Shown here in pieces: positions 5,671-54,679 of a stretch of DNA of 64,000 nucleotides. This stretch comes from Hwanghaeella grinnelliae (GTDB taxonomy: Bacteria; Pseudomonadota; Alphaproteobacteria; UBA8366; Aestuariispiraceae): contig NZ_SADE01000003.1 of the NCBI RefSeq assembly GCF_004005845.1, forward strand, positions 682,001-746,000, given 5' to 3'. The translations under genes were made by a program, and so were the position numbers. Position 1 is the first letter of the stretch; every line of letters begins with the position of its first letter. The notes under the pieces were generated by a model. That model searched no databases, was not told the DNA's origin, and saw only the letters and a list, made by a program, of their open reading frames with translations.

Positions 5671-5867
5671 TTTGGAGTCCAATGTGTTTTGGGGCACAGT
5701 TAAGAACCACGGATTGCTGCGCCGCTTTCTTTCCAAAAAGGGGCGCTGAGGGGTCTAGCGGTTCATCGTGTGCCCCCTAAATGGTGCATGGCCGTTGTTG
5801 CCAGCGTTGTAAGCGTGGTGGTAGTGGGGAGAGATCGACGTTGTTTTTTGAATTTTCGAGGTAGTTT

Positions 5868-7442
5868 GTGTCTCAAAATCTCAAGATTTCTCTCTTGGGT
5901 GAGGTGAAAGTCGTTTCCGAAGGGAGTGAGATTCCCCTTCCCGCGTCCCGAAAGGCGCGCGCGCTGCTGGCTTTCCTAGCCGCCACAGGCCGGCCGCACA
6001 GGCGGGAACGGCTTTGTGAATTGTTGTGGGACCTGCCGGACGACCCGAAAGCATCTCTGCGCTGGGCATTGAGCAAGCTGCGCCGGGCGGTAGATGACGA
6101 GGACCGCCACCGGATCGTTGCCGATCGGGAGCGAGTCCATTTCGACACGCACGGCGTAGACATAGACATCCGCGATATCCACGCTCGGCTTCGCGACAAC
6201 GCCTCAGACGTCGGCGTGCAAGAGCTAGACGCAATGTCGCAGCAATTGAGTCTTCCGCTGATGGACGGTCTGGACGGGGCCGGCGACGATGCCTTCGCCT
6301 CGTGGCTTACCGCCGAGCGCGAGGATGCACAGTTGGCCTATATCGACGTGCTGCGCCGCCTGTCCACGCATCCCGATGTCAGTCCCGCCGCGGCACAGAA
6401 ATGGATTCGACTTTGGCAGGAAGCCGACCCATACGATACGGAAGAACAAAAGCGCGCTGCGGAAGCCGCAACCGCGCGAGGCCGGTCGACCAAGGTGCGG
6501 GAAAAGAAACAACAAATGTCACCCGGAATGGAACGACAGACGGTTCGTTCCCCAGCCAACGAACCAAACCCGCAGGATGCCCACAAGCGCGCTCTTCGGG
6601 CACAGTCCATAGGGTTCTGCGACGTCAAGGACGGCATCAAGATAGCCTATGCGACCATCGGTTCGGGCCCACCGCTTCTCAAAGCGGCGAATTGGCTCAA
6701 CCATTTGGAGTTCGACTGGAGCAGTCCCATTTGGGGGAAAAGTTTTGCGGAAATAGCAAAGTACCGAACTTTCATCCGCTATGACGAACGCGGTTGCGGC
6801 CTCTCGGACTGGGATGTTGCGGATCTGAGCTTCGAGGCTTTCGTGGAAGACCTGGAAGCTGTTGCCGATAAAATGGGATTGGACCGTTTCCCACTCCTAG
6901 GAATTTCACAAGGAGCCGCCGTCAGTATCGAATACGCTGTGCGCCACCCGGACCGCGTTTCCGGATTAGTTCTGATGGGCGGTTATGCCGCCGGCTGGCG
7001 CCATCTGGCGTCCCCGGAAGAGCAGGCCCGTCGTGAGGCCGTCATGACGCTTACCGAGCTGGGTTGGGGAACGGACAATCCCGCATACAGGCACATTTTC
7101 TCACAAACCTTCATGCCGGAAGCGACTGCGGAGGATCTTGCCTGGTTCGATGAGTTTCAGCGGCTAACCACATCTCCGCGGAACGCCGCCCGATTCCAGG
7201 ATGCTTTCGGTTATATCGACGTCCGCGACCGGCTGAAAGACGTCAAGGCGCCTACAATCGTGCTGCACTCGAAAGACGATCAGCGGATTCCGCTTTCCAC
7301 AGGCCGGGCGCTAGCGTCCAGCATCCCTAACGCCAGCTTCGTTCCCCTCGACAGCCGAAATCACATTCTGGTCGACCACGAACCGGCCTGGCGCGACTCT
7401 TTCACAGCCGTGGGCCGGTTCATGGTCGAAAAAGGAATCTGA
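5868..7442 (+). CDS. BTAD-type transcriptional regulator fused to an alpha/beta hydrolase
   Basis: A 524-residue two-part protein starting at GTG after a gaggtag ribosome site. Residues about 5-95 form an OmpR/SARP-like winged helix (ISLLGEVKV, SRKARALLAFLA, LWDLPDDPKASLRWALSKLRR) and about 100-200 a helical BTAD domain. A charged linker leads to a C-terminal alpha/beta hydrolase from about 245 with a complete apparent triad: Ser347 in GISQG, Asp471 in HSKDDQRIP and His499 in SRNHILVDH. This suggests a cytoplasmic regulator that binds or hydrolyses its own ligand. The divergent P450 is its likely target. The fusion is known in alphaproteobacteria, but the ligand is not identifiable from sequence. 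Confidence 0.85.
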   Translation: MSQNLKISLLGEVKVVSEGSEIPLPASRKARALLAFLAATGRPHRRERLCELLWDLPDDPKASLRWALSKLRRAVDDEDRHRIVADRERVHFDTHGVDIDIRDIHARLRDNASDVGVQELDAMSQQLSLPLMDGLDGAGDDAFASWLTAEREDAQLAYIDVLRRLSTHPDVSPAAAQKWIRLWQEADPYDTEEQKRAAEAATARGRSTKVREKKQQMSPGMERQTVRSPANEPNPQDAHKRALRAQSIGFCDVKDGIKIAYATIGSGPPLLKAANWLNHLEFDWSSPIWGKSFAEIAKYRTFIRYDERGCGLSDWDVADLSFEAFVEDLEAVADKMGLDRFPLLGISQGAAVSIEYAVRHPDRVSGLVLMGGYAAGWRHLASPEEQARREAVMTLTELGWGTDNPAYRHIFSQTFMPEATAEDLAWFDEFQRLTTSPRNAARFQDAFGYIDVRDRLKDVKAPTIVLHSKDDQRIPLSTGRALASSIPNASFVPLDSRNHILVDHEPAWRDSFTAVGRFMVEKGI

Positions 7443-7451
7443 CGGCCGCCC

Positions 7452-8831
7452 CTATTTCTGTTTTTTCAAGTGGTAGGATTTCGGCCGGGTCAGGTTGTGG
7501 AATCCAATAACCGACAATCCGCCGCCTCGGCCCGTGTCCTTGCATCCGGTCCAACACAAGCCGGGATCGAGATAGTCAGCCCGGTTCATGAAGACGGTGC
7601 CCGTCTCAATCTGTTGCCCGATCCTCTCGGCGCGCCCGACATCGGCCGTCCAGAGGGAAGCGGTTAGTCCGAAATCGCTGTCATTCATCAGCCGGATCGC
7701 TTCCGCGTCGTCCTTGACCGACATGATACCAACGACCGGCCCGAAGCTTTCATCCCGCATCACGCGCATGTCGTGTGTGACATCAACCAGGATCTGCGGC
7801 ATCAGGTAAGCGCCGTCGTCCTGCGGAAACAGTGACGGGTCAATCAGCGCCCTGGCCCCCTTGGCGATCGCATCCGCGGTCTGCGCGCGCACCTCTTCCG
7901 CGAAGCGGGTCTGAGCCATCGGGCCAAGCGTCGTTTCGGGGTCCATCGGATTGCCCAGCTTGTAACCGCTGACAATGGCAACGGCCTTGTCGACAAAGGC
8001 GTCGAACAGGCTTTCAGCGACATAGATCCGTTCGATACCGCAGCAGCACTGACCGGAATTGAACATAGCCCCGTCGATCAGGGTATCGACAGCCGCGTCC
8101 AAGTCCGCATCTTCCATGACATAGCCGGGATCCTTCCCGCCCAGTTCCAAACCGACGCCGGTGAAGGTGCCGGCCGCCGCACGTTCAATGGCACGCCCGG
8201 CACCAACCGAACCCGTGAAGTTAACGAAGCCGAAGGCCTTCGCTGCGATCAGGTCCGCTGTCGTTTGGTGATCCAGAAAGACGTTGATGAAAACATCTTC
8301 GGGCACGCCGGCATCGTGGAAGGCCTTGGCCATCCGTTCACCCACAAGCATGGTCTGGGTGGCATGCTTCAGCAGCACCGTGTTCCCGGCGATCAAGGCC
8401 GGCGCGACCGTATTGATCGCCGTCATATAGGGATAGTTCCACGGCGCGACGACCAGAACCACGCCGACAGGTTCGCGGGCGATATAACGCTTGAAGCTAT
8501 CGCTGTCCTCGACCGCGATCGGGGCCAGGGCCTGTTCCGCGATGCCGGCCATATAGGTCGCGCGTTCGTTGAAGCCGCCGAATTCACCGCCATAGCGGAT
8601 CGGCCGGCCCATCTGCCAGGCCAGTTCGGGCACGACCTCATCATTCATCTCGCCGACATTCTCGACACCTTGTGTGACGAGGGCGATGCGTTCCGCCAAG
8701 GGCCGGGCGGCCCAAGCCTTTTGTGCGGCCCTGGCACGGGCCGCTGTTTCTTTTGCTTCAGGCGGCGTCAGAACCGGGCGTTCCGCAACGGTGGACCCGT
8801 CAATCGGGGATATGCATTTCAACGTTGTCAT
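7452..8831 (-). CDS. NAD(P)-dependent aldehyde dehydrogenase
   Basis: A 459-residue ALDH-superfamily enzyme. The oxyanion Asn132 (PWNYP), general base Glu229 (GLELGGKDPG) and catalytic Cys263 in FNSGQCCCG are all present, so it should be active on an aldehyde with NAD(P)+. It is the last gene of the minus-strand transporter/kinase/demethylase operon, 44 bases after the demethylase stop, with AAGGA upstream of the ATG. It may oxidise an aldehyde formed during breakdown of a methylated amine, for example betaine aldehyde, a semialdehyde or formaldehyde-derived product. Substrate choice is an inference from position only. Confidence 0.88.
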   Translation of the reverse strand: MTTLKCISPIDGSTVAERPVLTPPEAKETAARARAAQKAWAARPLAERIALVTQGVENVGEMNDEVVPELAWQMGRPIRYGGEFGGFNERATYMAGIAEQALAPIAVEDSDSFKRYIAREPVGVVLVVAPWNYPYMTAINTVAPALIAGNTVLLKHATQTMLVGERMAKAFHDAGVPEDVFINVFLDHQTTADLIAAKAFGFVNFTGSVGAGRAIERAAAGTFTGVGLELGGKDPGYVMEDADLDAAVDTLIDGAMFNSGQCCCGIERIYVAESLFDAFVDKAVAIVSGYKLGNPMDPETTLGPMAQTRFAEEVRAQTADAIAKGARALIDPSLFPQDDGAYLMPQILVDVTHDMRVMRDESFGPVVGIMSVKDDAEAIRLMNDSDFGLTASLWTADVGRAERIGQQIETGTVFMNRADYLDPGLCWTGCKDTGRGGGLSVIGFHNLTRPKSYHLKKQK

Positions 8832-8875
8832 TCTTTGTGTTCCTTCGAAACGGGCCGCAATTCCGCGGCTATCCG

Positions 8876-11320
8876 CTAAGCTTTCACGCGTTCCATCTTG
8901 GGATCATACAGGGGCGCAAGGGTGACGGTGCACGGGACCCGAACGGTGGCGACTTCAAGTTCGTAGTCGCCATCCTTGACGTAATCCGCCGTGACCCCGT
9001 CTTTGTTGCGCACATAGCCCATCCCGATGGACTTTCCAACCGTGTGCCCATAACCAGCGGACGAAAGATAGCCCACCCTTTCGCCATTGCGGTAAATGGT
9101 TTCGCGGCCCGAAAGAATGACGTCGCCATTGGCCACGAAAGTGGCCAGCATTTTCTGCACACCGCCCGACCTTTGAGCTTCAACCGCAGCACGCCCTTTG
9201 AAGTCGATGTTTTTCTTCAGCTTGACGGCCCAACCCAGGCCAGCTTCGTCCGGGGTGTAATCGGGACCGATATCCGACCCCCAGGCGCGATAGCCTTTTT
9301 CCAAACGCAGGGTTTCGATCGCGCGATAGCCGGCGTTCTTCAAACCGAACTCGGCCCCCGCTTCATGCAGGGCTTTGTAAACCGTCGTAGCGTATTCAAC
9401 CGGCAAGTGGAGTTCCCAGCCCAGTTCACCAACATAGGTCACACGCAAGGCATGCACCGGGCAACCTGCAATGCCGATGGTCCGCGCCTTGCCGAATTTG
9501 AAAGCGTCATTGGAGACATCGTCGCGTGTTGCTTTTTGCAGGATGTCGCGCGCCTTGGGGCCCATGAGGGACAGAACCGAATAGGCCGACGTCACGTCGA
9601 CCAACTGGGCGTTCATGCCGTCAGGAATGTTGCGGGAAATCCAGTCGAAATCATGCGTCGCAAAGCCTGTCCCGGTGACGATGTAGTACTCATCCTCCGC
9701 CACACGGACACAAGTCAGGTCGCATTCGATGCCGGCATTGTCATTCAGCATCTGGGTATAGATCAGAGAGCCGACCGGCTTGGCGACGTCATTGGACGCG
9801 ATCCAGCTAAGCGCCGCTTCCGCATCCGGCCCTTTCAAGCAGAACTTTGCAAAAGAGGTCTGATCGAACATCACAGCCGCCTCGCGCGCGGCCTTGTGCT
9901 CACGACCGACCGGTGCGTGCCAATTCGGCCGTTCGAATGTGTAGATGTCCTTCGGTTCCTCACCCGCCGACAGATCGGCATACCAGTTCGGGCGTTCCCA
10001 GCCGAGCTTCTCGCCAAATACCGCGCCATCCGCCTTCAGCACATCGTAGAGCGGAGATTTCCGGCACGGTCTTCCGCTGTCATGTTCTTCCGACGGCCAG
10101 GCCATGGTGTAGTGCTTGCCATACGCCTCGACCGTGCGGGTGCGGACCCAGTCCGTATCGAAATGCGGTCGGCCGAAACGACGGATATCCACCGGCCACA
10201 GATCGAAAGGCGGCTCTCCCTTCGCAACCCATTCCGCCAAGGCCATGCCGGCCCCGCCGCCCGCGGCGATGCCATAGGCGTTGAACCCTGCGCCAACGAA
10301 GAAGTTTTTCAATTCAGGCGCTTCGCCCAGAATGAAGTTTCCGTCCGGCGTGAAGCTTTCCGGCCCATTGACCAATTCCTTGATACCGGCGGTTTGCAGC
10401 GCGGGCACGCGGCCAAGCGACAGTTCCATCAACTGTTCGAAGTGATCGTAGTCGCTATCCAGAAGCGTGTAGTGGAAGCCCTGCGGGATGCCGTCGACAG
10501 CCCAGGGTTTCGGGTTCGGTTCGTACCCCCCCATGACAAGGCCGCCGACTTCTTCCTTGTAATAGGTCAGACGGTCGGGGTCGCGCAGGGTCGGCAGGTT
10601 GGAGGGCACCCCTTCGATCTGTTCGGTGACCATGTATTGGTGTTCCATCGACGCCAACGGCACATTAACGCCGACCGATTTGGCGAAGGCCCGGGTCCAT
10701 TGCCCGCAACAGGCGATAACGATGGGGGTGTCGATCCGCCCCTTTTCCGTCTCGACGCCCTTGATCACGCCCTTGTCGATATCGATAGACAGCACCTTTG
10801 TGTCTTCGAAAATCCGGGCGCCAGCCATGCGCGCGCCCTTGGCAAGCGAACCGGTGATGTCCGACGGATTGGCCTGACCGTCCGTCGGCAGGAAAGCCGC
10901 CCCGACAAGATCGTCGATATCCATCAAGGGCCAAAGATCCAGCGCCTCTTTCGGAGTCAGCAACTGCATGTCCAGTCCGAAGGAATGCGCGGTTGTGGCC
11001 TGGCGTTTCACTTCCGTCCAACGTTCCTGATTGCAGGCAAGACGCAGACCGCCATTCATCTTCCATCCGGTTGCCTGACCTGTTTCCTCTTCAAGAGTAT
11101 TGTAGAGATCCACTGAGTAGCCGAGCAATTGGGTGATATTCGCGCTGGAGCGCAATTGCCCGACCAGGCCCGCCGCATGAAAAGTCGTGCCGGAAGTCAG
11201 CTTTTTGCGCTCAAGCAGGACGACGTCCCAACCAAGCTTCGCCAGGTGATAAGCGGTCGAACAGCCGACGATACCGCCGCCGACGATGACGGCTTGCGCA
11301 GATTTGGGGAAATCGCTCAT
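8876..11320 (-). CDS. FAD-dependent dimethylglycine/sarcosine-type dehydrogenase with GcvT domain (copy 1)
   Basis: An 814-residue oxidative demethylase from the ATG at 11320. The frame continues 49 codons upstream into the kinase gene, but the ATG has an AGAGG ribosome site and forms an ATGA overlap with the kinase stop. The N-terminal DAO domain has VIVGGGIVGCSTAYHL (11-26) and the TTFHAAGL motif with His48, the expected covalent-flavin histidine. From about residue 430 there is a GcvT-like aminomethyltransferase domain that in relatives transfers the released one-carbon unit to tetrahydrofolate. The expected reaction is removal of an N-methyl group from dimethylglycine, sarcosine or a similar secondary/tertiary amine. 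A paralogue lies at 19080-21503. Confidence 0.88.
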   Translation of the reverse strand: MSDFPKSAQAVIVGGGIVGCSTAYHLAKLGWDVVLLERKKLTSGTTFHAAGLVGQLRSSANITQLLGYSVDLYNTLEEETGQATGWKMNGGLRLACNQERWTEVKRQATTAHSFGLDMQLLTPKEALDLWPLMDIDDLVGAAFLPTDGQANPSDITGSLAKGARMAGARIFEDTKVLSIDIDKGVIKGVETEKGRIDTPIVIACCGQWTRAFAKSVGVNVPLASMEHQYMVTEQIEGVPSNLPTLRDPDRLTYYKEEVGGLVMGGYEPNPKPWAVDGIPQGFHYTLLDSDYDHFEQLMELSLGRVPALQTAGIKELVNGPESFTPDGNFILGEAPELKNFFVGAGFNAYGIAAGGGAGMALAEWVAKGEPPFDLWPVDIRRFGRPHFDTDWVRTRTVEAYGKHYTMAWPSEEHDSGRPCRKSPLYDVLKADGAVFGEKLGWERPNWYADLSAGEEPKDIYTFERPNWHAPVGREHKAAREAAVMFDQTSFAKFCLKGPDAEAALSWIASNDVAKPVGSLIYTQMLNDNAGIECDLTCVRVAEDEYYIVTGTGFATHDFDWISRNIPDGMNAQLVDVTSAYSVLSLMGPKARDILQKATRDDVSNDAFKFGKARTIGIAGCPVHALRVTYVGELGWELHLPVEYATTVYKALHEAGAEFGLKNAGYRAIETLRLEKGYRAWGSDIGPDYTPDEAGLGWAVKLKKNIDFKGRAAVEAQRSGGVQKMLATFVANGDVILSGRETIYRNGERVGYLSSAGYGHTVGKSIGMGYVRNKDGVTADYVKDGDYELEVATVRVPCTVTLAPLYDPKMERVKA

Positions 11321-12213
11321 TTGGTGCCTCTTTGGGGAAGGATGTTCGTTATTGCCCGTTCGTAACGGGAGAGGTTCTCGGCGGTGTATGCGCCATAGTC
11401 GAAATCGATTTCCGACGTGATCTCGGAAACCATGCTCCACATCGTCTCGCGTAGCAGCGATCCGCATTTCATCGCGTTGTAGCTTTGCAGCAGGGCCTCA
11501 TCAGGCTCGGTTCCATAGTAGGTCCGCAGCAAAAGACGTTCCGCTTCAACAGGTAGGCTGCAATTCGTCGCAACACCGCCCAGATCAAACAGCGGGGAGT
11601 TGAACCCGCCATATTCCCAATCCACCAGCCACAGCCGGTCTTCCGCCTGAAGAATATTGGCCGGCAACAGGTCGTTATGGCCAAGGACAAGGTTAACTTT
11701 GCCCACAGCGCCTTCCAGAGCCGCCGCATCTTCGACCAATTGCTGAAGTTTCGGGATATGGGCAGACCCATTTTCCTTCAGGAAGGCGGCATAGTCGCGA
11801 ACCACGTGGAAGACCCAGAATGTGACGATGGGGCCACGGACAAGGTCTGTGACCTTGGTATGTACATCGCGGATCAACCCGGCGACTTGCACCAACGTCG
11901 CTTCATCGTGGAGGTCGTTCTCCTCCATCGGGCGGGAGTCGACGTAGTCCAAGACAAGAGCGCCAGGTTCGGCATAGTGAATTCCGGGGGAAATGCCCGC
12001 CTCTTCGGCAGCACGACTGATCGCCAGTTCGTTGAATCGCATAACGCTGTGTTCGGGAATGTCCTGACCCAGGCGCACGACATATTTCTTGCCGCCATCG
12101 GTCAGCGTGATGTTGATATTGGTAATGCCGCCGCCCAAGGGGGCCGCACCCTTCGGGTCTGTCCAGCATGGCAGTGAACATGCTTTGGTAATGGCTTGGT
12201 CGATTGCGCTCAT
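11317..12213 (-). CDS. Choline/ethanolamine-kinase-like phosphotransferase (copy 1)
   Basis: A 298-residue APH/choline kinase fold protein. It has the nucleotide-loop region GGGITNINI (28-36), the catalytic Brenner motif H179-N-D181 with Asn186 (GHNDLLPAN), and the metal-binding Asp198 in LVDWEYGG. It should phosphorylate a hydroxyl group of a small molecule, with choline, ethanolamine or an amino alcohol as typical substrates. It overlaps proW by 4 bases upstream and the demethylase by 4 bases downstream, so it is firmly embedded in a transporter-kinase-demethylase operon. An aminoglycoside-resistance role is unlikely in this context. Confidence 0.85.
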   Translation of the reverse strand: MSAIDQAITKACSLPCWTDPKGAAPLGGGITNINITLTDGGKKYVVRLGQDIPEHSVMRFNELAISRAAEEAGISPGIHYAEPGALVLDYVDSRPMEENDLHDEATLVQVAGLIRDVHTKVTDLVRGPIVTFWVFHVVRDYAAFLKENGSAHIPKLQQLVEDAAALEGAVGKVNLVLGHNDLLPANILQAEDRLWLVDWEYGGFNSPLFDLGGVATNCSLPVEAERLLLRTYYGTEPDEALLQSYNAMKCGSLLRETMWSMVSEITSEIDFDYGAYTAENLSRYERAITNILPQRGTK

Positions 12214-14213
12214 TTCAATCCCAACCTTTCCCGCGAAGATCTGGCTAGTGCCGTCACGATCCGGTCCGCGATGATCGCGATGAAGGCCACCGCCAGGCCG
12301 GCGACGATGCCCTGGCCGGTATTGGCTTTGGTCAAGGCGATATAGACCTCCTGCCCAAGGTCCCGCGTACCGACCAGGGCGGTGATCACAAGCATCGAAA
12401 TCGCCAGCATGATGGTTTGATTCAGGCCGAGCAGCAGGGATGGCGCGGCCAAGGGCAATTTAATCCGCCACAGGATCTGCCGTTCCGTACACCCGAAGAC
12501 CTTGCCAGCCTCGATCAGTTCAGCGTCGATAGATCGTATGCCATGCGCGGCGTAGCGCACCGCGGGCGCAAGTGCGTAGAGAACGACCGCGATCATCGCG
12601 GAAAAATCGCCAACCCGGAACAGCATCACGACCGGAATCAGATAGACAAAACTGGGCAGGGTTTGAAGCGTGTCGATGAACGCGCCGATCACCGAATTGG
12701 CCCGGGCACTCTGCCCCGCCCAAATTCCCAATGGTATGCCAATGATGCTGGCGATCAGCACCGACGTTGCGCAAAGATACACCGTCGTCATCGCCTTGCC
12801 CCAAAGGCCGGACGCCGCCACGAACAGGGTTAAGCCCGCCGCAAGCAGGCCCAATTTCCAGCCACCGACACGTCCCGCAGCCAACCCGATCACGAGGATG
12901 CCCCATATCCAGGGAATGCCGCCGAAGAACTTCTTGATCGGAACCAGAAGGAATGTGAGCAGCTGTGTCTTGATGAATTCCAACGTGTTAAAGAAGTTCA
13001 CGTTGATCCATTCGATCGCAGCAGTCCAGAAAGACCCGGTGGTGATTGTGAGGTCTTCCGGATAGAGGTGAACCGGCGGGACGAACAACCCAGCCACCGT
13101 GGTCACGGCGACCAACAAGAGAATTCCGGTCAGCAAGGGCCGCCGTTTATGGAATGGCAGCGACGGGTTCAGCGGGGCATCGAAACGGCGAACCGCGAAT
13201 GCCTGACTCAACCGGTCCAATGCGATCGCCATCACTACGATGGCTAATCCCGCTTCCACACCGCCGCCGATGTCCAGCCGCCTCAACGCGGTCAGCACAT
13301 CGTAACCCAGACCACCGGCCCCGATCATGGACGCAATGATCACCATATTCAGCGTCAGCATGATAACTTGGTTCACACCAACCATCAGGGATGGTTTCGC
13401 CGTCGGGATCAGGACCTTCCACATCATCTGCCGCTGCGTGCAGCCGACCATGCGGCCCGCTTCGATGAGTTCCTGCGGGACGCTTTGCAATGCCACTGTC
13501 GAAACGCGCACCATCGGCGGCATGGCATAGACGACCGTCGCCACAAGGGCGGAAACCGGACCGAAACCAAACAAGAAAAGAATCGGAACCAGATAGGCAA
13601 AGACGGGCACCGTCTGCATCAAGTCCAAGACCGGCCGCATCATACGTTCCGCCAGGGGAACACGATAAGCGAAAATACCGAGCGCCAGCCCGCCCGCCAC
13701 ACCGATGGGCACGGCGATCAAGACCGAGGCCAGCGTGATCATCGCGCTATCCCATTGCCCGAACATCGCCAGATATACGAAACAGATGCCGACCAGCAGA
13801 ACCAGGTTCCGGCGGCGCGCATGGTAGGCAAGCGCCAGGATAATCCCGATCACCGCGATCCAACTGAGCGACGGCGCCACTTGGACCGCCTGTTGGCCCT
13901 GACCGACGGCGAAACCATCGATCAGCAAGGAGCGCACAATGTCATAGGGGGCTTCGATCAACGCCGAGATAAACCGTGTCACATCGCGGAAGGTGAAAAG
14001 CCCGAACGTCGCATCTTCCACCAGCCAGGACATCGCGTCGGATATCCATTTGTCCAATGGCAGTTCAAACTTTTTGGGAAAACGAATGATCCAACGCGCG
14101 TCGAGCGCTTTGTACAAGTCGAACGACCAAGTCGATAGCGCCCACGTAATGGCAAAGAGCCCCAACCAAAATAGGGATGCCCAGCGCGTCAGACGTGACA
14201 GTGCCTCGCTCAT
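12210..14213 (-). CDS. proW: Glycine betaine/proline-type ABC permease, two permease domains fused in tandem
   Basis: A 667-residue inner-membrane permease made of two ProW-like halves. Each half carries an EAA-type coupling loop: ELIEAGRMVGCTQRQMMWKV in the first and ELIEAGKVFGCTERQILWRI in the second. A usual ProW has one such domain of about 280-380 residues, so this protein can supply both transmembrane halves of the importer. It begins one base into the proV stop (TGATG) and ends overlapping the kinase start (ATGA). With ProX and ProV it forms a substrate-binding-protein-dependent importer for a quaternary amine or similar osmolyte. Confidence 0.9.
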   Translation of the reverse strand: MSEALSRLTRWASLFWLGLFAITWALSTWSFDLYKALDARWIIRFPKKFELPLDKWISDAMSWLVEDATFGLFTFRDVTRFISALIEAPYDIVRSLLIDGFAVGQGQQAVQVAPSLSWIAVIGIILALAYHARRRNLVLLVGICFVYLAMFGQWDSAMITLASVLIAVPIGVAGGLALGIFAYRVPLAERMMRPVLDLMQTVPVFAYLVPILFLFGFGPVSALVATVVYAMPPMVRVSTVALQSVPQELIEAGRMVGCTQRQMMWKVLIPTAKPSLMVGVNQVIMLTLNMVIIASMIGAGGLGYDVLTALRRLDIGGGVEAGLAIVVMAIALDRLSQAFAVRRFDAPLNPSLPFHKRRPLLTGILLLVAVTTVAGLFVPPVHLYPEDLTITTGSFWTAAIEWINVNFFNTLEFIKTQLLTFLLVPIKKFFGGIPWIWGILVIGLAAGRVGGWKLGLLAAGLTLFVAASGLWGKAMTTVYLCATSVLIASIIGIPLGIWAGQSARANSVIGAFIDTLQTLPSFVYLIPVVMLFRVGDFSAMIAVVLYALAPAVRYAAHGIRSIDAELIEAGKVFGCTERQILWRIKLPLAAPSLLLGLNQTIMLAISMLVITALVGTRDLGQEVYIALTKANTGQGIVAGLAVAFIAIIADRIVTALARSSRERLGLK

Positions 14214-15238
14214 CAGGATCTGCGGCCAATCATGACATCGACGACCGTTCGACCATCAATCGTTCCCACAGCCACCCCATCCTCGTCCAACACCTTGAAA
14301 GGGTGGGGGGCTGCTTCGACTTGGTCGACGGCTTCGGCGACGGTAAGGCTGCCCGGAAGCTCACCGGCATAGGGTCCTTCAGGCACACCCTGCGCCATGA
14401 CGGAACGCAGTTTGACCACCTTCGCCCTGGGGATGTGCTGGGTGAAATCCTCGACATAGGAGGTTGCAGGATTCCGGACCAACTCCTCCGGTGTCGCGAT
14501 TTGTTCGATGACGCCGTCTTTCATGACCGCGATGCGATCGGCGAGGCGGATCGCTTCATCGAAGTCATGGGTGATGAAAACAATTGTTTTATGCAACATC
14601 GCCTGCAGGCGCATAAACTCGTCCTGCATTTCACGTCGTATCAGTGGGTCCAAGGCAGAGAAGGGCTCATCCAGAAACCAAAGATCCGGATCCGCGACCA
14701 ATGAACGCGCGATTCCGACGCGCTGCTGCTGGCCACCGGAAAGTTGCCGGGGGAAATGGTCTTCCCGACCAACGAGGCCGACGATCTCGATCATCTGCCG
14801 CGCGCGGTCTTCCCGCGTCTTCTTATCGACGCCCTGCACTTCCAGCGGGAAGGCGGCGTTCTGCAAAACGGTTAGATGCGGCAACAGGGCGAAGTGCTGA
14901 AACACCATCCCCATTTTCTTGCGGCGAACCTCAATCAGTTCGGCTTCATTCATGGAAAGAAGGTTGCGGCCTTCGAACTGGATTTCGCCGGCCGTTGGTT
15001 CGATCAGGCGCGACAAGCATCGCACCAATGTGGACTTCCCCGACCCGGACAGTCCCATGATGACGAATATCTCACCTTCGCAAATCTGGACGCTCGCGTC
15101 TCGGACCGCACCGGTCATGCGTTCCGCGGCCAGATCCTCGGCGGTAGGGGCGCCGCCGTGGCGCGCCAGGAAGGCCTTGGGATCGGAACCGTAAATCTTC
15201 CAAACACCGCGGCAATCGAGTTTTACGGGACGTTCCAT
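14213..15238 (-). CDS. proV: Glycine betaine/proline-type ABC transporter ATP-binding protein
   Basis: A 341-residue ATPase of the ProV/OpuAA family. It has Walker A GLSGSGKST (62-70), the signature LSGGQQQRVGIARS, Walker B LWFLDEPFSALDP, the switch His in FITHDFDEA, and a C-terminal extension of about 70 residues resembling half of a CBS pair. It powers uptake through the fused permease. It is separated from proX by 136 bases with two stem-loops and is translationally joined to proW by a one-base overlap. Substrate specificity rests with the binding protein. Confidence 0.9.
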   Translation of the reverse strand: MERPVKLDCRGVWKIYGSDPKAFLARHGGAPTAEDLAAERMTGAVRDASVQICEGEIFVIMGLSGSGKSTLVRCLSRLIEPTAGEIQFEGRNLLSMNEAELIEVRRKKMGMVFQHFALLPHLTVLQNAAFPLEVQGVDKKTREDRARQMIEIVGLVGREDHFPRQLSGGQQQRVGIARSLVADPDLWFLDEPFSALDPLIRREMQDEFMRLQAMLHKTIVFITHDFDEAIRLADRIAVMKDGVIEQIATPEELVRNPATSYVEDFTQHIPRAKVVKLRSVMAQGVPEGPYAGELPGSLTVAEAVDQVEAAPHPFKVLDEDGVAVGTIDGRTVVDVMIGRRS

Positions 15239-15299
15239 CGCGGTCTCATATGTCGTCGTTAAGAGCTGCGGCGGTCGAATATAACCGCCCGAGGCATGC

Positions 15300-15353
15300 G
15301 GAGGCGCCTGAAACGGCGCCTCCGTGGGGTCCCGCAGGGGTCAAAATACCCCT
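15300..15353 (-). terminator. Two consecutive stem-loops between proX and proV
   Basis: First stem: GGAGGCGCC (15300-15308) and GGCGCCTCC (15315-15323), a perfect 9-base pairing with a 6-base loop. Second stem: AGGGGT (15336-15341) and ACCCCT (15348-15353), a perfect 6-base pairing. Neither is followed by a T-run on the minus strand. This suggests partial termination or 3'-end protection that raises proX mRNA over the distal genes. Confidence 0.6.
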
Positions 15354-15374
15354 AAGCGAAGAATGCCGGCCGCC

Positions 15375-16316
15375 TTATTTAGTCCAGGTGGACCATTCGG
15401 CTTCGTTGGCCTTCAGCCATTCAGCAACGACATCTTCGATTTTTGCACCGTCAAGATCGACCTTACCAACCATGTCACCCATGTCGGCATTGCTGACCGT
15501 GAAGGCCTTGATGGCTTTGGCAGCGCCAGGCCATTTCTTCTCGACACCTTCCCAGGAAACCTTCCAGATCGGGCCGGTTGGCTTTCCGCAGTCATAAGCA
15601 GCGTCCGGATTGCTGCCCCAAGCGGGGTCGTTGTAGCATTCGGGCGTATAAGCCGGGAACTTGACGAAACTACCCTTGTACTTAGCTGGCGCCCAATGCG
15701 GCGAATAAAGCCACAGCACGATCGGCGCTTTCCGCTGATAGGCGGATTCAAGTTCGGCGAAGAGCGCGGCGTCGGTACCTGCATGGACGACTTCAAAATC
15801 CATGCCCAGCGCTTCAACACGCTCGTCGTCATAGCCGCCCCAAGTCACGGGACCGCCAAGGTAGCGACCGAGCGGTTCGGTTTCCGGCGTGGAGAATTCC
15901 TGCGCGCAATCGTTTAGCGCCTTCCAGTCCGGAAGGCCCGGGCAGACTTCTTCCATATAGGCCGGGTACCACCACTCCTCGATGGCTTCCATGCCGGTCT
16001 CACCCATGTTGACGACCTTGCCGGTGGCAAAGGCTTCGTCCATGGCGTCACGGCCGGTCGTTTCCCAGATTTCCATGGCGACGTGCAGGTCACCGGTCTT
16101 CAAACCGGCAAATTGCGCGATATAGTCGGCTTGAACGTATTCGACGTTGTATCCGGCCTTCTTCAAGACTTCGCCCATGATGGTGGTCGTGATGATTTGA
16201 CCGGTCCAATCGTGGGTGGTGAGTTTGATCGGATCCTGCGATTCAACGCCGGCAAACGCGCCGGTCGAGACAAAGGCAGTCAGTACCCCTGCAAGAACAG
16301 TCTTCATTGGTTTCAT
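15375..16316 (-). CDS. proX: Glycine betaine/proline-type ABC substrate-binding protein
   Basis: A 313-residue periplasmic binding protein of the OpuAC/ProX family. It has an N-terminal signal peptide ending near GAFAGVES (about residue 23), the THDWTGQ start of the mature domain and several Trp/Tyr residues (IWETTGRDAMDE, EWWYPAY, WLYSPHWAP) of the kind that form the aromatic cage around quaternary amines. It is the first gene of the operon proX-proV-proW-kinase-demethylase-ALDH, with a good Shine-Dalgarno (GGAGG). The ligand could be betaine, choline, carnitine or a related molecule; sequence alone does not decide. Confidence 0.88.
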   Translation of the reverse strand: MKPMKTVLAGVLTAFVSTGAFAGVESQDPIKLTTHDWTGQIITTTIMGEVLKKAGYNVEYVQADYIAQFAGLKTGDLHVAMEIWETTGRDAMDEAFATGKVVNMGETGMEAIEEWWYPAYMEEVCPGLPDWKALNDCAQEFSTPETEPLGRYLGGPVTWGGYDDERVEALGMDFEVVHAGTDAALFAELESAYQRKAPIVLWLYSPHWAPAKYKGSFVKFPAYTPECYNDPAWGSNPDAAYDCGKPTGPIWKVSWEGVEKKWPGAAKAIKAFTVSNADMGDMVGKVDLDGAKIEDVVAEWLKANEAEWSTWTK

Positions 16317-16406
16317 ATTCAGCCTCCGAGCTGCTGCGGTTTCACGCGTCTATCTCAAGCCGCGGCGACCTGACCTGCGCGCTACCCTCAAATGTCTTGG
16401 AAAAAC

Positions 16407-16452
16407 CCACAAAACGCAACGCCAAAATTGGTATTTTCGCAGTTTTATGTGG
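16407..16452. promoter_or_regulatory. Candidate operator upstream of the proX operon
   Basis: This block contains CCACAAAAC (16407-16415) and the inverted arm GTTTTATGTGG (16442-16452). A block with the same elements in the same order and spacing (CCACAAAA, CAAC, TTGG, GTTTT, ATG) occurs at 21547-21590, upstream of the second demethylase operon. It lies 91 bases upstream of proX and about 120 bases upstream of deoR, so the DeoR protein is the natural candidate binder. Confidence 0.45.
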
Positions 16453-16569
16453 CTTTTTGCTGCATTTGATGCACTATTACCGATGCTGGTATGAACACAA
16501 GAAACAGCTCCTCCGGTCAGCACATCCCGCAATACAAAATGGGATGAAAAAGGGGGACGGAGAAGAAAA

Positions 16570-17349
16570 ATGGAGCCGCGTTCCAACCATCGCCAAAACG
16601 AAATTCTGGATCAGCTGCGCCGATCCGGTGGGTCCATGCGCGTCCACGCCATCGCGCAAGCCTTGCAGGTAACCGAAGAAACCGTGCGCCGAAACGTTAA
16701 GGCGCTGGTCAACGACGGCTTGGCGGAAAAGACCCATGGCGGCGTTCGTTTGATCAGCCTGGAAGAAGAAGTCGACTTCCACCAACGCTACCGGGAGAAT
16801 CCTGAAGCCAAACGGCGGATCGCACAGCACGTAGCCGGTCTCATTACGGACGGCACATCCCTATTCCTGGATATTGGCAGCACAACGGCGCATATCGCCG
16901 ACGCCTTGCGGGACCACAAGCGGCTGCTTGTGGTTACCAATTCCGTCTATGTCGCCTATCGGTTGGCGACACGGAACGAGAACCGGGTTTTCATGGCGGG
17001 CGGGGAATTGCGCAGCCATGACGGCGGCGCTTTCGGTGCGGACGCGATGGCATTCGCCGCCAATTTCAGCACCGACTATGCAATCCTTTCCGCCGCCGGG
17101 ATCACTGCGGCCAACGGCTTCATGCTGTTCGATCTGGAAGAAGCACAATTCTCACGCCTGATCATGGGGCAGGCGACAACCCGTATCGTCGCCGCGGATT
17201 CGAGCAAATTCGGACGAGAGGCGCCGATTACGGTGGGCGATCCCTCCCTCGTCGATATACTGGTATGTGACCGGCAGCCGCCAGAGGATATCTCTGCCGC
17301 GGCGACGGAATGGAACACTGAAATTCAAGTCGCCACCCAGGAGAGTTGA
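16570..17349 (+). CDS. DeoR/GlpR-family transcriptional regulator
   Basis: A 259-residue DeoR-type repressor. The N-terminal helix-turn-helix lies around residues 5-60 (NEILDQLRRSG, ALQVTEETVRRNVKAL) and is followed by the sensor domain with the conserved DIGSTTAHIADAL (about 97-109). DeoR-family sensors normally bind phosphorylated small metabolites, which is notable because two small-molecule kinases and a phosphatase gene are in the same locus. It is divergent from the proX operon and shares one base with the phosphatase start, so it probably controls both directions. The inducer is unknown. Confidence 0.88.
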   Translation: MEPRSNHRQNEILDQLRRSGGSMRVHAIAQALQVTEETVRRNVKALVNDGLAEKTHGGVRLISLEEEVDFHQRYRENPEAKRRIAQHVAGLITDGTSLFLDIGSTTAHIADALRDHKRLLVVTNSVYVAYRLATRNENRVFMAGGELRSHDGGAFGADAMAFAANFSTDYAILSAAGITAANGFMLFDLEEAQFSRLIMGQATTRIVAADSSKFGREAPITVGDPSLVDILVCDRQPPEDISAAATEWNTEIQVATQES

Positions 17350-18125
17350 TGTCTACGCCTATCGATCAAATCCGTGATGCGGCCATCCGCATTGCCGAGG
17401 AAGCCAGTGCCGTTCCCATGTCCTATTTCCGTGCATCCTTCACGGTCGATTCAAAAGCGGACGAAAGCCCCGTGACGATCGCCGATCGGGAAACGGAAGC
17501 CTTTATCCGGAAAGCGCTGGGCGAAAGTTTCCCCGATCATGGCATTCTTGGGGAGGAGTTCGGCATTTCAGGCTCGCTCGACGGCGAAACCTGGATCGTT
17601 GATCCCATCGACGGAACGAAGTCCTTCATTACAGGATATCCGTTGTTCGGCATGTTGATGGGGTATCTGGACGGCGGCGAGCCAAGACTGGGGCTGGTGC
17701 GCATGCCGGCTTTGAACGAAACTTATGTCGGCATTCCCGGCCAAGGCGCAACGCTGAACGGAAAACCGATCCAGACCGCAAAGACGACCGAGCTTGGCGA
17801 GGCATCGGTCTATATCAACGAACCTGATGGCATCCGCAGGAACCATCCCGATCTGTTCGAGCGAATTTGGAGCACCGGCGGCACACGCCGGGCGGCCTAT
17901 GACTGCTACCCCCATGCGTTGGTCGCAAGCGGGCAGATCGATATCTGCATCGATTTCGGTCTGCAGCCCTATGACTACCTACCTTTGATCGGATTGATCG
18001 AAGCGGCGGGCGGCATCATGACGGATTGGGACGGCAACAAGCTGACCATGGAGTCGGAAGGCCATGTCGTCGCCGCGGCAACGCCGGAACTCCATGCCGC
18101 TATACTGCCCTCCCTGAAACGGTAG
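17349..18125 (+). CDS. Inositol-monophosphatase-family phosphatase
   Basis: A 258-residue Mg-dependent phosphatase from the ATG at 17349, which overlaps the deoR stop by one base and follows CAGGAGA. It shows the family metal-binding motifs: GEEFG (residues about 66-70), DPIDGTKSF (about 83-91) and a C-terminal segment in which the usual WD is seen as QPYDYLP. It is closest in look to HisN/inositol monophosphatase proteins that hydrolyse phosphate monoesters. Co-transcription with deoR and proximity to two kinases suggests that it removes a phosphate from an intermediate of this pathway. A role as histidinol-phosphatase cannot be excluded. Confidence 0.82.
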   Translation: MSTPIDQIRDAAIRIAEEASAVPMSYFRASFTVDSKADESPVTIADRETEAFIRKALGESFPDHGILGEEFGISGSLDGETWIVDPIDGTKSFITGYPLFGMLMGYLDGGEPRLGLVRMPALNETYVGIPGQGATLNGKPIQTAKTTELGEASVYINEPDGIRRNHPDLFERIWSTGGTRRAAYDCYPHALVASGQIDICIDFGLQPYDYLPLIGLIEAAGGIMTDWDGNKLTMESEGHVVAAATPELHAAILPSLKR

Positions 18126-18131
18126 GCCGGA

Positions 18132-19061
18132 TCAGCGCGCTTTAACAGCAGCCACATGCCCTGGGAATGCCGGGTCCTGCATGAGCGCCTTGCAACGCTC
18201 GAAGCGCTCGGTGGCATAGGCCCAGAAATCCTCGACTGGGTTGCCGTCGGCGAATTGGATCAATCCCCAAAGCGTCCACAAAAGGTCGCACATCGCCTTA
18301 TAGATAACGACCCGGCCTCTCTCCTCAGGTGTCGGTTCCCGGCCGAAATAACCGCGCAGCAATTCCGCTTCTTCCACATCGGTCATGCCGGCCTCGACGG
18401 AAAGGTCGCCCAGGTCCCATAAGGGATCATTCATGCCGGAATATTCCCAATCGACAATCCACATGACATCCCCGTCATCGAGAAAATTCTCGCATAGCGG
18501 ATCGCAATGACACGGCGCCAATGGCGCCGGGTTTGCTTGCAGGGCTGTCTTCACAGGATCGGCGGCCTTGACGATGTCATGATATCCATCCGGCAGCGCC
18601 ACGTCCTTGGTCGACAATACCTTCAGATAATCCTCGATCATGGAAAACAGTTCGAATCGGAAATCGAATTCCTCGCCGGAGTTATGCAGCTTCGCAAGCG
18701 CCTTGCCCGCGCGTCCCGGTGACCCCGCCCTTTCGGAGAAAAGCGCCGGCGTCATCGTCACGATGTCGTCAATGGCCCTTGTGATCATAACACCCGTCGC
18801 CGGGTCGCCCCACAGAACCTCCGCGGAAACCCCGGCCTTCCAGGCCGCGACGGCATTGGTCAGTTCCACCTTGCGGTCGATATATTCTTCCGTTCCGTCG
18901 CCCGGGATACGGACGATCACCCGGTCGGTTCCGGTGTCGACGAGATGGACCAAGTTGGTCAGGCCGCCCAGTCGGGAAACGGAACATTCTTCCGCCGTTA
19001 CCGCCTCAAACCCCGGTGCGCTCTTCAACGCCGCGATTGCAGCTTCGATATTCTCCTGCAT
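18132..19061 (-). CDS. Choline/ethanolamine-kinase-like phosphotransferase (copy 2)
   Basis: A 309-residue APH/choline kinase fold protein. It has a nucleotide loop around SRLGGLTNLVH (29-39), the catalytic motif H185-C-D187 with Asn192 (HCDPLCEN) and the metal ligand Asp204 (IVDWEYSG). It is clearly related to the 11317-12213 gene but divergent, so it is an older paralogue. It lies 18 bases after the second demethylase, with AAAAGGGG as a ribosome site, and converges on the phosphatase gene with only six bases between stops. It presumably phosphorylates an amino alcohol or related hydroxyl compound; the substrate is unknown. Confidence 0.85.
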   Translation of the reverse strand: MQENIEAAIAALKSAPGFEAVTAEECSVSRLGGLTNLVHLVDTGTDRVIVRIPGDGTEEYIDRKVELTNAVAAWKAGVSAEVLWGDPATGVMITRAIDDIVTMTPALFSERAGSPGRAGKALAKLHNSGEEFDFRFELFSMIEDYLKVLSTKDVALPDGYHDIVKAADPVKTALQANPAPLAPCHCDPLCENFLDDGDVMWIVDWEYSGMNDPLWDLGDLSVEAGMTDVEEAELLRGYFGREPTPEERGRVVIYKAMCDLLWTLWGLIQFADGNPVEDFWAYATERFERCKALMQDPAFPGHVAAVKAR

Positions 19062-19079
19062 ATCGACCCCTTTTGTCTC

Positions 19080-21503
19080 TTAAGCCTTCAGCCTTTTGTT
19101 CTCTGCATCATAAAGCGGTCCGTCCACCTTGGCGATTGGGTGCCTGTCCCCGAAAACCTCGATTTCGAAACCATCTTCGTCCCAAAGGGGTTTGTCGAGA
19201 TAGCCGAAGACGATGGTTTTGCCGACCGAATGGCCAAAGCCGGCTGCCGACGCCAATGAAACCGTATTCCCCTTGAACAGAATTGTCTCCCCGCCATAGA
19301 GGGGAAGCTTGGCATCAGTCGCGAAGGTACACAGCTTTCGGCCCGGCCCTTCCCCCTTCTGCTTTTCCAGGACGCGCCGGCCGATAAAGTCTCCACCCGA
19401 TTTCAAATGCACACGGAAGCCCAGTCCCGCTTCGATCGGCGTATAGTCCGGCGTGATATCGCCCGACCAATAGAGATAACCTTTCTCCAGACGCAAACTG
19501 TCGATGGCCCGATAGCCGACATCCTTGATGCCGTAAGGTTCGCCCGCCGCTGACAGAGCATTATAGACATGCGCGCCGAATTCCGTCGGAACGTGCAATT
19601 CCCAGCCCAGTTCCCCAACGAAGCCGATCCGGACCGCGCGAACAGGCGCGGCGCCGATGACAATGTCCCGCGCCGTTCCAAAGGGAAAGGCATCGTTCGA
19701 CACGTCGTTCTCGCAGACCGATTGCAGAACATCCCGGGCCTTGGGCCCGCAGATATTGATCACCGCGCGCGCGGACGTCATCTCGATCAAATGAACCGAC
19801 CCGTCTTTCGGCATGTGCCGGCGGATCCAATCCGCGTCATGGGTCCCGAAGCCGGACCCGGTGACGATGTAGAAATGATCCTTGGCCAAGCGGGTGATGG
19901 TCAGGTCGGCTTCGATCCCGCCGGTCTCATTACAGAGCTGGGCATAAATGACCGTGCCGTCAGGCTTGTCCATATTGCAGGCAGCCAAGCGCTGCAGCAG
20001 GTCCAAGGACCCGGGGCCGACCATTTCAAACTTTGCGAAACTGGATTGGTCGATCAGGGCGACGCCCTCGCGGACCGCTTTGTGCTCCTCCGCGGCAAAT
20101 TTGTGCCAGCCCGGCTCCAGGAAATCGAGCTGATCGATTGGTTCGACGCCTTCCGGCGCGAACCATAGCGGCCGTTCCCAGCCATTCTTGGACCCGTATA
20201 CCGCGCCCTTGTCTTTCAGGATTTCGTAAAGCGGCGACAGGCGCAATTGCCGGGCCGTTTCATGTTCCTGCCCGGGATAACGCATCTTGTAGTGATGCGC
20301 ATAGTGCTCGACGGCGCGGGGATACATGAAAGCCTTCGTACCGTGATGCGGACCGAAACGACGGCAATCGAGCGGCCAGAGATCCAGGCTCGGGCGGCCC
20401 TCGGTGATCCATTCCGCGATCATCTCCCCGGCCCCACCGCCGGCGGCAATCCCATAAAGGAAACCCGTCGCCATCATCAGGTTGTCGAATCCCGGCATCC
20501 AGCCCATCACGAAATCACCGTCCGCCGAATAAGGAATCGGGCCGTTGATGACCTGGCGAATTCCCACCTCTTCCAGGATGGGCGTGACCTGCGTCGCCAG
20601 TTCCGCCAACGGTCCGAACCGATCCAAGTTGTCCGGCAGCAACTGACGCACGAATTCGCCCGGAATGCCCGCGTCCCCGAAAGGCAACGTGTCCTCTTCG
20701 TAGCCGCCGATAACCATCCGTCCGCCGGCATCCGGCTTGTAATAGACCAGACGCTCCGGGTCCCGCAGCGTCGGCAGGCCCTTGACCAAATCCACATCCG
20801 GCAGCGGTTCGGTCACGATGTATTGGTGTTCGACCGCACAGGCGGGCACCCGAATGCCCAGCTTGGCGCCAAGTTCACGGCTCCACATGCCGGCGGCGAA
20901 GACAACGGTTTCGGCTTCGTAATCGCCGTCCGAGGTCAATACCTTGGCGATCCGGCCATCGGTGACTTCGAAATCGTCAACCTTCAACCCTTGGCGAATC
21001 TGCACACCATGCTTGCGCGCACCGGCGGCGATCGCCTGACACAGGCTGGCCGGGTCCACATGCCCATCCGAGGGAATGAAGGCCGCACCTTCCAATCCGC
21101 TGGCGTCGATATAGGGAAAAAGGTTCTTCGCCTCTTCGGCGGTGATCATCTCCATTTCCAAATCGAAACTGCGGGCCATTGTTGTAAGTCGCTGGGCTTC
21201 GAGGAGGCGTTCGCGCGTCGACGCGAGGCGAAGACTGCCGACCTTCTTCCAGTCGAACGCCATGCCTGTTTCCGCTTCCAGGGTGTCATACATAGCAACT
21301 GAGCGTTTCAGCATCCGCGTCGTGTTGCGGGAGGACCGCAACTGCCCGACCAGCCCCGCAGCGTGCCACGTGGCGCCTTCTGTCAGGGACGCTTTTTCAA
21401 GCAGGACGACGTCCTTTTCCCCATTCTTGGCCAGATGATAGGCAATGGAGCAGCCGATGATTCCGCCGCCGATAATGAGGTGCTTTGCCGAATGGGTCGC
21501 CAT
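19080..21503 (-). CDS. FAD-dependent dimethylglycine/sarcosine-type dehydrogenase with GcvT domain (copy 2)
   Basis: An 807-residue oxidative demethylase from the ATG at 21503, preferred over the GTG at 21509 because AGGA is spaced 7 bases from it. The N-terminal FAD domain has LIIGGGIIGCSIAYHL (9-24) and GATWHAAGL with His47, the likely covalent-flavin residue. The C-terminal half is a GcvT-like folate-binding domain ending in GDRHPIAKVDGPLYD. It is colinear with the copy at 8876-11320 along its whole length but well diverged. It heads an operon with kinase copy 2. The expected role is N-demethylation of an amine with transfer of the one-carbon unit to folate. Confidence 0.88.
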   Translation of the reverse strand: MATHSAKHLIIGGGIIGCSIAYHLAKNGEKDVVLLEKASLTEGATWHAAGLVGQLRSSRNTTRMLKRSVAMYDTLEAETGMAFDWKKVGSLRLASTRERLLEAQRLTTMARSFDLEMEMITAEEAKNLFPYIDASGLEGAAFIPSDGHVDPASLCQAIAAGARKHGVQIRQGLKVDDFEVTDGRIAKVLTSDGDYEAETVVFAAGMWSRELGAKLGIRVPACAVEHQYIVTEPLPDVDLVKGLPTLRDPERLVYYKPDAGGRMVIGGYEEDTLPFGDAGIPGEFVRQLLPDNLDRFGPLAELATQVTPILEEVGIRQVINGPIPYSADGDFVMGWMPGFDNLMMATGFLYGIAAGGGAGEMIAEWITEGRPSLDLWPLDCRRFGPHHGTKAFMYPRAVEHYAHHYKMRYPGQEHETARQLRLSPLYEILKDKGAVYGSKNGWERPLWFAPEGVEPIDQLDFLEPGWHKFAAEEHKAVREGVALIDQSSFAKFEMVGPGSLDLLQRLAACNMDKPDGTVIYAQLCNETGGIEADLTITRLAKDHFYIVTGSGFGTHDADWIRRHMPKDGSVHLIEMTSARAVINICGPKARDVLQSVCENDVSNDAFPFGTARDIVIGAAPVRAVRIGFVGELGWELHVPTEFGAHVYNALSAAGEPYGIKDVGYRAIDSLRLEKGYLYWSGDITPDYTPIEAGLGFRVHLKSGGDFIGRRVLEKQKGEGPGRKLCTFATDAKLPLYGGETILFKGNTVSLASAAGFGHSVGKTIVFGYLDKPLWDEDGFEIEVFGDRHPIAKVDGPLYDAENKRLKA

Positions 21504-53378: not shown

Positions 53379-54679
53379 AAACCGACCAACCGAGGCAACC
53401 AAAGCACGATCGCGGGAAAGGCGATGAGAATCGCCAAACGGACAATATCAGCCGCCAGGAATGGCACGACGCCCTTGACGATGGTCTGAATGCGCAGATC
53501 GCTCGCGACGCCCTGGATGACGAACAAGTTCATGCCCACGGGCGGGGTTATCAGGCCAAGCTCGGCGACCGTCACGATAATGACGCCGAACCAGACAAGG
53601 TCGAACCCCAAGGTGGCGACCATGGGCACCACGAAGGGGACGGTCAGCAGGATCATGCTCAAGGCGTCCATGAAACAGCCGAGCACGATGTAGAACACCA
53701 TGATCAGCAGCATGACCGCCAAGGGCGGCAGGCCGAGCGCCTCGACCTGACCGACCAGCAACTGCGGCAGGCCCGCGGTTTCGATGAAATAGTTGAAGAC
53801 AGCGGAACCAATCAGGATCAGGAAGATCATGCCGGTGATTTCCGCCGTTTCCTGGAAGCACTGGCGCAGCACCCCGCGCGTGAGTGCCCCGCGCCCCCAA
53901 GCCAGGACCAAGGCTCCGAACGCACCGACTGCGGCGGCTTCGGTCGGCGAGAAGAAACCGAGATAAATACCACCGATTACGACCACGAACAGGAGTATGA
54001 CCGGCCAGATCGCGCGCAATGTGGTGAAACGCTCGCCCCAGCTATGGCGTTTTCCCGCAGGGCCGAGTGTCGGATTGCGCCGCACCTGAAACCAAACCGC
54101 CGCCATATACAGCAAAGTGCCGACAACGCCGGGAATCAGCGCCGCCGCGAACAGGGCACCGATCGATTGTTCCGTCAGCAGTGCATAGATCACCAGCAGG
54201 ATCGACGGCGGAATCAAGACGCCCAGTGTCCCGCCCGCCGCGATGGAGGCCGCGGCCAAACTGTCGTCATAGCCATGACGGCGCATCTCCGGCAGCGCGA
54301 CGCGGCACATCGTTGCCGCTGTCGCCAGGCTGGACCCACAGATCGCCCCAAATCCGGCGCAAGCCCCGATGGACGCCATCGCCAACCCGCCGCGCATATG
54401 GCCCACGAAGGCATTCACCCCCTGGTACAGGCTGCCGGACAAACCGGCATGGGCGGCGAAGACGCCCATCATCAAGAACAGAGGCACAACGGAAAGCGTG
54501 TAGGGGAAAGTCGCTTCAAAGGGCGCGCCGCCCATGATGAAGCCCACCGCGTCCCATCCGTTCAGGATGCCGAACCCGACGGCCCCCACGACCCCCATGG
54601 CAATGGCGACCGGCACACCGAACGCGATCAAGCCCAGCGTCGCCAAAAACCCGAGGAGGCCGATAACAGGATCAGACAT
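53375..54679 (-). CDS. dctM: TRAP transporter large permease (DctM)
   Basis: A 434-residue inner-membrane protein with about twelve hydrophobic helices, matching the DctM family in length and motifs ([52 protein letters not shown]). It carries out sodium- or proton-coupled uptake of an organic acid delivered by the binding protein at 55358-56404. It follows the small permease by 4 bases. Confidence 0.92.

Follow-up and report, generated by a model that had tools for sequence, protein, structure and literature searches.

Analyzing a 64,000-nucleotide stretch of Hwanghaeella grinnelliae (the window; assembly GCF_004005845.1, contig NZ_SADE01000003.1, positions 682,001-746,000 of the forward strand), we identify a ten-gene locus at 7452-21503 that we consider, with slightly better than even confidence from its gene content and context, to be a module for the aerobic catabolism of N-methylated ethanolamines, with dimethyl- and/or monomethyl-ethanolamine as the most likely substrates, handled via their phosphate esters. 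The initial annotation of this DNA had described here a ProXVW-type uptake system (X, V, W), two choline-kinase-like kinases (KIN1, KIN2), two FAD-GcvT demethylases (DMGa, DMGb), an aldehyde dehydrogenase (ALDH), an inositol-phosphatase-family enzyme and a DeoR regulator, packed into three units. Our analysis confirms every one of these families and shows that all ten genes are intact, with zero internal stops. The units are DMGb-KIN2 (minus strand), DeoR-phosphatase (plus strand) and X-V-W-KIN1-DMGa-ALDH (minus strand), with overlaps of 4 bp at the W/KIN1 and KIN1/DMGa junctions and of 1 bp at V/W and DeoR/phosphatase, and with gaps of 44 bp ahead of ALDH, 18 bp between DMGb and KIN2, and 6 bp between the convergent ends of the phosphatase and KIN2 genes. 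This spacing is operon-like, and the junction overlaps of 1-4 bp resemble those of translationally coupled operons.

The association of these genes is far beyond chance, the same order being present in many genera. In a class-wide sample of 385 alphaproteobacterial genomes, 43 contain KIN1 and 62 contain KIN2-type matches, many of them distant; a scan of named genomes for KIN1, with neighbors identified by tblastn, gave 80 loci, which are related to one another, so that the counts that follow do not represent independent events. In 70 of the 75 loci with enough sequence, a FAD-GcvT gene comes after KIN1 on its strand (69 found by script, plus L108, where the matches overlap by 1-2 bases), and KIN2 adjoins DMGb in 26 of 30 (25 by script, plus L128, where the order is reversed). 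The phosphatase was found in 25 loci, and the nine-gene order DMGb-KIN2 / phosphatase-DeoR / X-V-W-KIN1-DMGa is present in at least 13, including those of Cognatishimia, Amylibacter, Roseovarius, Pelagibius and a Rhizobiaceae metagenome-assembled genome (MAG); in Labrenzia and Roseibium these genes are all present, but DeoR was detected at another place within the stretch. Other settings have just KIN1-DMGa, for example Labrenzia plasmids, Pseudovibrio, a Myxococcota MAG and three 1.4-Mb genomes of one genus that look SAR11-like in size and, in the one measured, in GC content (32%), and the pairing of KIN1 with a demethylase also reaches gammaproteobacterial MAGs. The kinases and phosphatase are thus conserved with the demethylases, a point on which the initial annotation had made its proposal depend, and since the kinases lie beside demethylases across loci, we reject the explanation that they are chance neighbors.

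DMGa and DMGb, which are 48% identical to each other and ~35% identical to rat dimethylglycine dehydrogenase (DMGDH), both have the FAD-DAO, FAO_M and GcvT domain order of that enzyme. Both also keep the His of an H-A-A-G-L motif that lines up with the region of DMGDH around its known flavin-linking His. The shared domains and the ~35% identity would fit DMGa and DMGb being simply the dimethylglycine and sarcosine dehydrogenases of choline/betaine breakdown, with the kinases incidental, and so would the neighbors of KIN1 in the SAR11-like genomes, with a homocysteine S-methyltransferase-family gene next to it or a GMC oxidoreductase not far away (L171 10880-11917, L172 9942-10979, L075 13466-15133). 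We regard this as very improbable, because a maximum-likelihood tree places DMGa and DMGb each in one group (support 99/96), apart from rat DMGDH, Arthrobacter dimethylglycine oxidase (DMGO) and other host paralogs, because the same genome contains several further FAD-GcvT paralogs, and because KIN1 adjoins a demethylase so regularly while dimethylglycine has no hydroxyl to phosphorylate; on the tree we reject a plain DMGDH identity for both proteins. A third FAD-GcvT paralog, on contig C3 at ~322-325 kb (L186 9112-11673), is 46% identical to DMGa and groups beside the DMGa clade, with no kinase of the KIN1/KIN2 family nearby among the listed open reading frames. A conserved Arg57, together with T63, W86, W375 and H386, is common to DMGa and DMGb and mostly absent from the other paralogs; these residues could hint at phosphate binding, but R57 is also present in the ~323-kb paralog, and we therefore give them no weight.

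The evidence that we hold to be strongest for ethanolamine as the demethylated product comes from the ALDH and the eto genes. ALDH orthologs, 75-80% identical in Ruegeria (79%), Marinovum and Sinorhizobium and 72% identical in Paracoccus, are located in ethanolamine (eto) operons. These operons have the order RpiR-amidohydrolase-TRAP-GS-ALDH-FeADH (FeADH, iron alcohol dehydrogenase), some with another transporter or none, and we find the window ALDH to be orthologous to the gene between GS and FeADH, as judged by operon position and not against the Phaeobacter sequence itself. No other close copy exists in the host genome (next best, 31%), and the eto operon of the host, located on a different contig, C1, at ~84-90 kb and containing EtoV, EtoW (86%), EtoX (87%), GS (66%) and FeADH (65%), has no ALDH between GS and FeADH. 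In two relatives the genes come together: Cognatishimia (L080) has KIN1-DMGa-amidohydrolase(PF05013)-GS-ALDH-FeADH as a single run, and a Rhodospirillales MAG (L154) has EtoW-EtoX-GS-ALDH-FeADH-KIN1-DMGa in one stretch. The amidohydrolase-GS-ALDH-FeADH series of Cognatishimia matches the ethanolamine operon of Phaeobacter (RpiR-GGAH-EtoVWX-ETAGA-GAADDH-GETADH), which is induced on the phosphoethanolamine headgroup and has an ethanolamine-binding protein (PMC10132767). The eto genes on a plasmid of Paracoccus pantotrophus (L211 11660-14747) precede bhcBCD, genes of the beta-hydroxyaspartate cycle, through which the resulting glycine/glyoxylate would be assimilated. Elsewhere in the window, at 53384-54679 (minus strand), there is a large permease of the TRAP type with 32% identity to EtoW.

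Our survey also identified a second cluster type without demethylases (L052, L053, L055, L068, L074), which combines two kinases, a HisN-like phosphatase and DeoR with an oligopeptide-type ABC transporter, a Zn-dependent hydrolase and, often, an amidase. As some members of this type carry either the ethanolamine ammonia-lyase EutBC (an Agrobacterium plasmid, L052; Paracoccus, L055) or GS-ALDH-FeADH (L068), two kinases, a phosphatase and an ethanolamine-consuming enzyme recur without demethylation; the substrate here is perhaps an amide of ethanolamine. Because the window ALDH is an eto-operon ortholog, the eto operon of the host has no ALDH, and the kinases of relatives lie beside eto genes or EutBC, the demethylated product is most likely ethanolamine and the substrates N-methylated ethanolamines, so that the generic N-methylated compound of the initial annotation can most likely be narrowed to this group. 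Kinases of this family accept varied alcohols, and the best NCBIfam match of both KIN1 and KIN2, although below its cut-off, is the guanitoxin-synthesis kinase GntI, which would fit a different N-methyl amine with a hydroxyl group, for example a methylated aminopropanol, serinol or a derivative of homoserine betaine; with the recurrent neighbors, eto genes and EutBC, both being ethanolamine systems, we consider such a substrate distinctly unlikely.

Both kinases pass the PF01633 gathering cut-off of 29 bits, with scores of 80 and 54 bits, and both retain the catalytic motifs of the Choline_kinase/APH families (H-x-D...N and DW/FEY). The W..W/Y amine-cage residues of choline kinases align in KIN2, which resembles LicA, and the first cage Trp appears to be Glu in KIN1, where the alignment is partly ambiguous. 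Where KIN2 occurs without DMGb it often adjoins S-adenosylmethionine-dependent methyltransferases (L051, L056, L060, L061, L092, L125, L153); among solved structures, the L061 enzyme matches methyltransferases of sarcosine/dimethylglycine and of phosphomethylethanolamine with nearly the same score, and L060 has a related one. These neighbors fit a kinase that makes a phosphobase open to methylation or demethylation. They would also suit anabolic salvage of phospholipid headgroups, with phosphocholine or phosphoethanolamine made for membranes, since choline kinases are known to feed phosphatidylcholine synthesis; yet the demethylases, the eto ALDH and the phosphatase are catabolic and no cytidylyltransferase is present among the ten locus proteins, and we consider this explanation very improbable.

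DMGDH-type enzymes normally use acidic amines as substrates, and their flavin chemistry would not be expected to oxidize a quaternary nitrogen. For the latter reason choline is unlikely as a direct substrate of DMGa or DMGb. For the former we propose a phosphate step, as the authors of the work on MthK/MthB of Eubacterium limosum argued likewise for choline (PMC12155760). In the route we envisage, the TmoX-like ABC transporter would import the amine, and KIN1 and KIN2 would phosphorylate its hydroxyl, so that the phosphate would supply the acidic group that is a carboxylate in the usual ligands of DMGDH-type enzymes. DMGa and DMGb would then oxidatively strip two N-methyl groups, each passing to tetrahydrofolate, to leave phosphoethanolamine, from which the HisN-like phosphatase would free ethanolamine. 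Gamma-glutamylation, the iron alcohol dehydrogenase, the window ALDH and hydrolysis, i.e., the eto pathway, would convert this to glycine, and DeoR probably represses the locus, sensing a phosphorylated intermediate. That an imported N-methylated compound is handled as a phosphate ester, as first suggested from the sequence, is the best reading of the conserved gene set; that the demethylases use the phosphorylated form, together with the substrates, the order of the phosphate steps and the division of labor between the paired enzymes, we infer.

An unlikely alternative to demethylation of the ester is that DMGa and DMGb demethylate the free N-methylated ethanolamines, while the kinases do no more than trap the amine or supply the inducer of DeoR, and the phosphatase resets this signal. 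DeoR-family sensors usually bind phosphorylated ligands, the phosphatase gene is co-transcribed with DeoR and not with the demethylases, and the phosphatase is missing from some loci, all of which this alternative would accommodate. However, a kinase adjoins the demethylase even where no DeoR was detected nearby, two kinases, each paired with a demethylase, appear excessive for signaling, and free amines would lack the acidic character that DMGDH relatives normally recognize. The phosphatase is nearer to HisN than to inositol phosphatases; because it is below the TIGR02067 cut-off and another host gene passes it at 286 bits, we reject a histidine-pathway HisN role for it. In Ruegeria AD91A the phosphatase, 55% identical to that of the window, directly follows DMGa.

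Several observations weigh against the catabolism of phosphorylated N-methylethanolamines proposed here. Some loci contain KIN1-DMGa only, with no phosphatase or KIN2 nearby, so that these are either not always needed or located elsewhere, and a few contain the kinase without a demethylase. EutB was not found in the host genome, and we therefore reject a route ending in EutBC for this host, where ethanolamine use would rest on eto alone; the best host candidate for the amidohydrolase is only 37% identical. The SAR11-like gene neighbors described above would also fit choline/betaine metabolism.

The genes of the locus are listed in the table below. A phage or mobile origin was rejected, with a single distant match in the phage collection, and the adjoining cytochrome P450-like open reading frame and regulator fused to an alpha/beta hydrolase (4459-5736 and 5868-7442; assigned by eye) are apparently unrelated.

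Table. Genes of the locus, with positions in the window
Gene and predicted product	Position	Strand	Supporting matches
ALDH, probable gamma-glutamyl-aminoacetaldehyde dehydrogenase (eto)	7452..8831	-	PF00171; 72-80% to eto-operon ALDHs
DMGa, FAD-GcvT demethylase, DMGDH-like, own clade	8876..11320	-	DAO+FAO_M+GCV_T+GCV_T_C; ATG at 11320
KIN1, choline/ethanolamine-kinase-family kinase	11317..12213	-	PF01633 2.5e-22; HND...N and DWEYGGF motifs conserved
W, fused double ProW/ChoW-type permease	12210..14213	-	two BPD_transp_1 stretches
V, ProV-type ATPase	14213..15238	-	TIGR01186 above cut-off
X, OpuAC-family binding protein, TmoX-like	15375..16316	-	PF04069; 4xz6 E 5e-79
DeoR/GlpR-family repressor	16570..17349	+	HTH_DeoR + DeoRC
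HisN-like inositol-monophosphatase-family phosphatase	17349..18125	+	PF00459; TIGR02067 247 bits vs 275 cut-off
KIN2, second choline-kinase-family kinase, 3dxq homolog	18132..19061	-	3dxq E 1.4e-118; LicA-type choline kinase 4r77 E 1.4e-31
DMGb, second FAD-GcvT demethylase	19080..21503	-	DAO+FAO_M+GCV_T+GCV_T_C; 48% to DMGa

Ethanolamine and choline headgroups are major carbon and nitrogen sources in the sea, and in the literature that we searched no genes have been described for the partly methylated ethanolamines that lie between the two. In this locus, bacteria common in the sea and in soil have a complete candidate route. We put at about even the broader proposal that DMGa and DMGb use flavin and folate to demethylate phosphorylated N-methylethanolamines, an activity of which we found no earlier account, and that with the kinases and phosphatase they run the phosphobase methylation pathway of plants and nematodes in reverse, giving a widespread aerobic route to ethanolamine and glycine that would be present even in streamlined SAR11-like genomes. 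If true, many genes called dimethylglycine dehydrogenase or FAD-dependent oxidoreductase would be re-annotated, a function would be assigned to the structural-genomics kinase family of 3dxq, and phosphorylation as a means of letting betaine-type demethylases accept amino alcohols would extend from anaerobes to aerobes. The neighbors of KIN1 in the SAR11-like genomes hint that some SAR11 genes now called dimethylglycine dehydrogenase may belong to this family of demethylases.

Several known systems resemble parts of the locus. The kinases share their family and catalytic motifs, and KIN2 its amine-cage aromatics, with LicA and the eukaryotic choline/ethanolamine kinases, but unlike these they adjoin demethylases and are apparently catabolic. 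DMGa and DMGb share the FAD-DAO and GcvT domains, the flavin-linking His region and the folate acceptor domain with dimethylglycine/sarcosine dehydrogenases and Arthrobacter DMGO, and differ in their separate clades, in residues such as Arg57 and in their linkage to kinases. The nearest solved structure to X in a homology search is 4xz6, which we take to be the TMAO (trimethylamine N-oxide)-binding TmoX of Ruegeria, and W is a fusion of two ProW-like modules. The relationship to the TmoXVW and Tmm-Tdm methylamine pathway extends to gene order, since in Salipiger, Citreicella and Actibacterium (L091, L095, L099, L103; ~6.2-13 kb) the trimethylamine monooxygenase and TMAO demethylase genes are directly followed by KIN1-DMGa, in an apparent methylamine gene cluster where tmm and tdm are both above the NCBIfam cut-offs for the tested copy; Tdm, however, is a DUF1989-GcvT fusion and not a FAD-GcvT enzyme. 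With the eto pathway of Phaeobacter and Chromohalobacter the window locus shares the ALDH, and in relatives also GS, FeADH and the amidohydrolase, whereas that pathway imports ethanolamine by a TRAP transporter or permease and has no kinase, phosphatase or demethylase (PMC10132767). The closest parallel in principle is the Mth system of Eubacterium limosum (MthK, MthB, MthC, MthA), reported in 2025, where an amino alcohol is first turned into its phosphate ester by a kinase and then gives up a methyl group to tetrahydrofolate; this kinase-dependent choline demethylation contradicts the premise of the initial annotation that known betaine/choline demethylation routes need no kinase (PMC12155760). 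Beyond that paper, the open-access literature, of which we covered a part, gave no earlier account of a folate-linked route for N-methylethanolamines or of a choline-kinase/DMGDH cluster. The principle of phosphorylating and then demethylating thus has one anaerobic precedent, and for the enzymes and the link to ethanolamine breakdown we found none. The Mth system is anaerobic, uses corrinoid methyltransferases and a serine-kinase-related MthK, and ends at dimethylethanolamine (PMC12155760), whereas the window locus, with no MttB-family or corrinoid protein among its ten products, combines flavin-folate demethylases with a phosphatase and with kinases of the choline kinase family, and is linked to the breakdown of ethanolamine.

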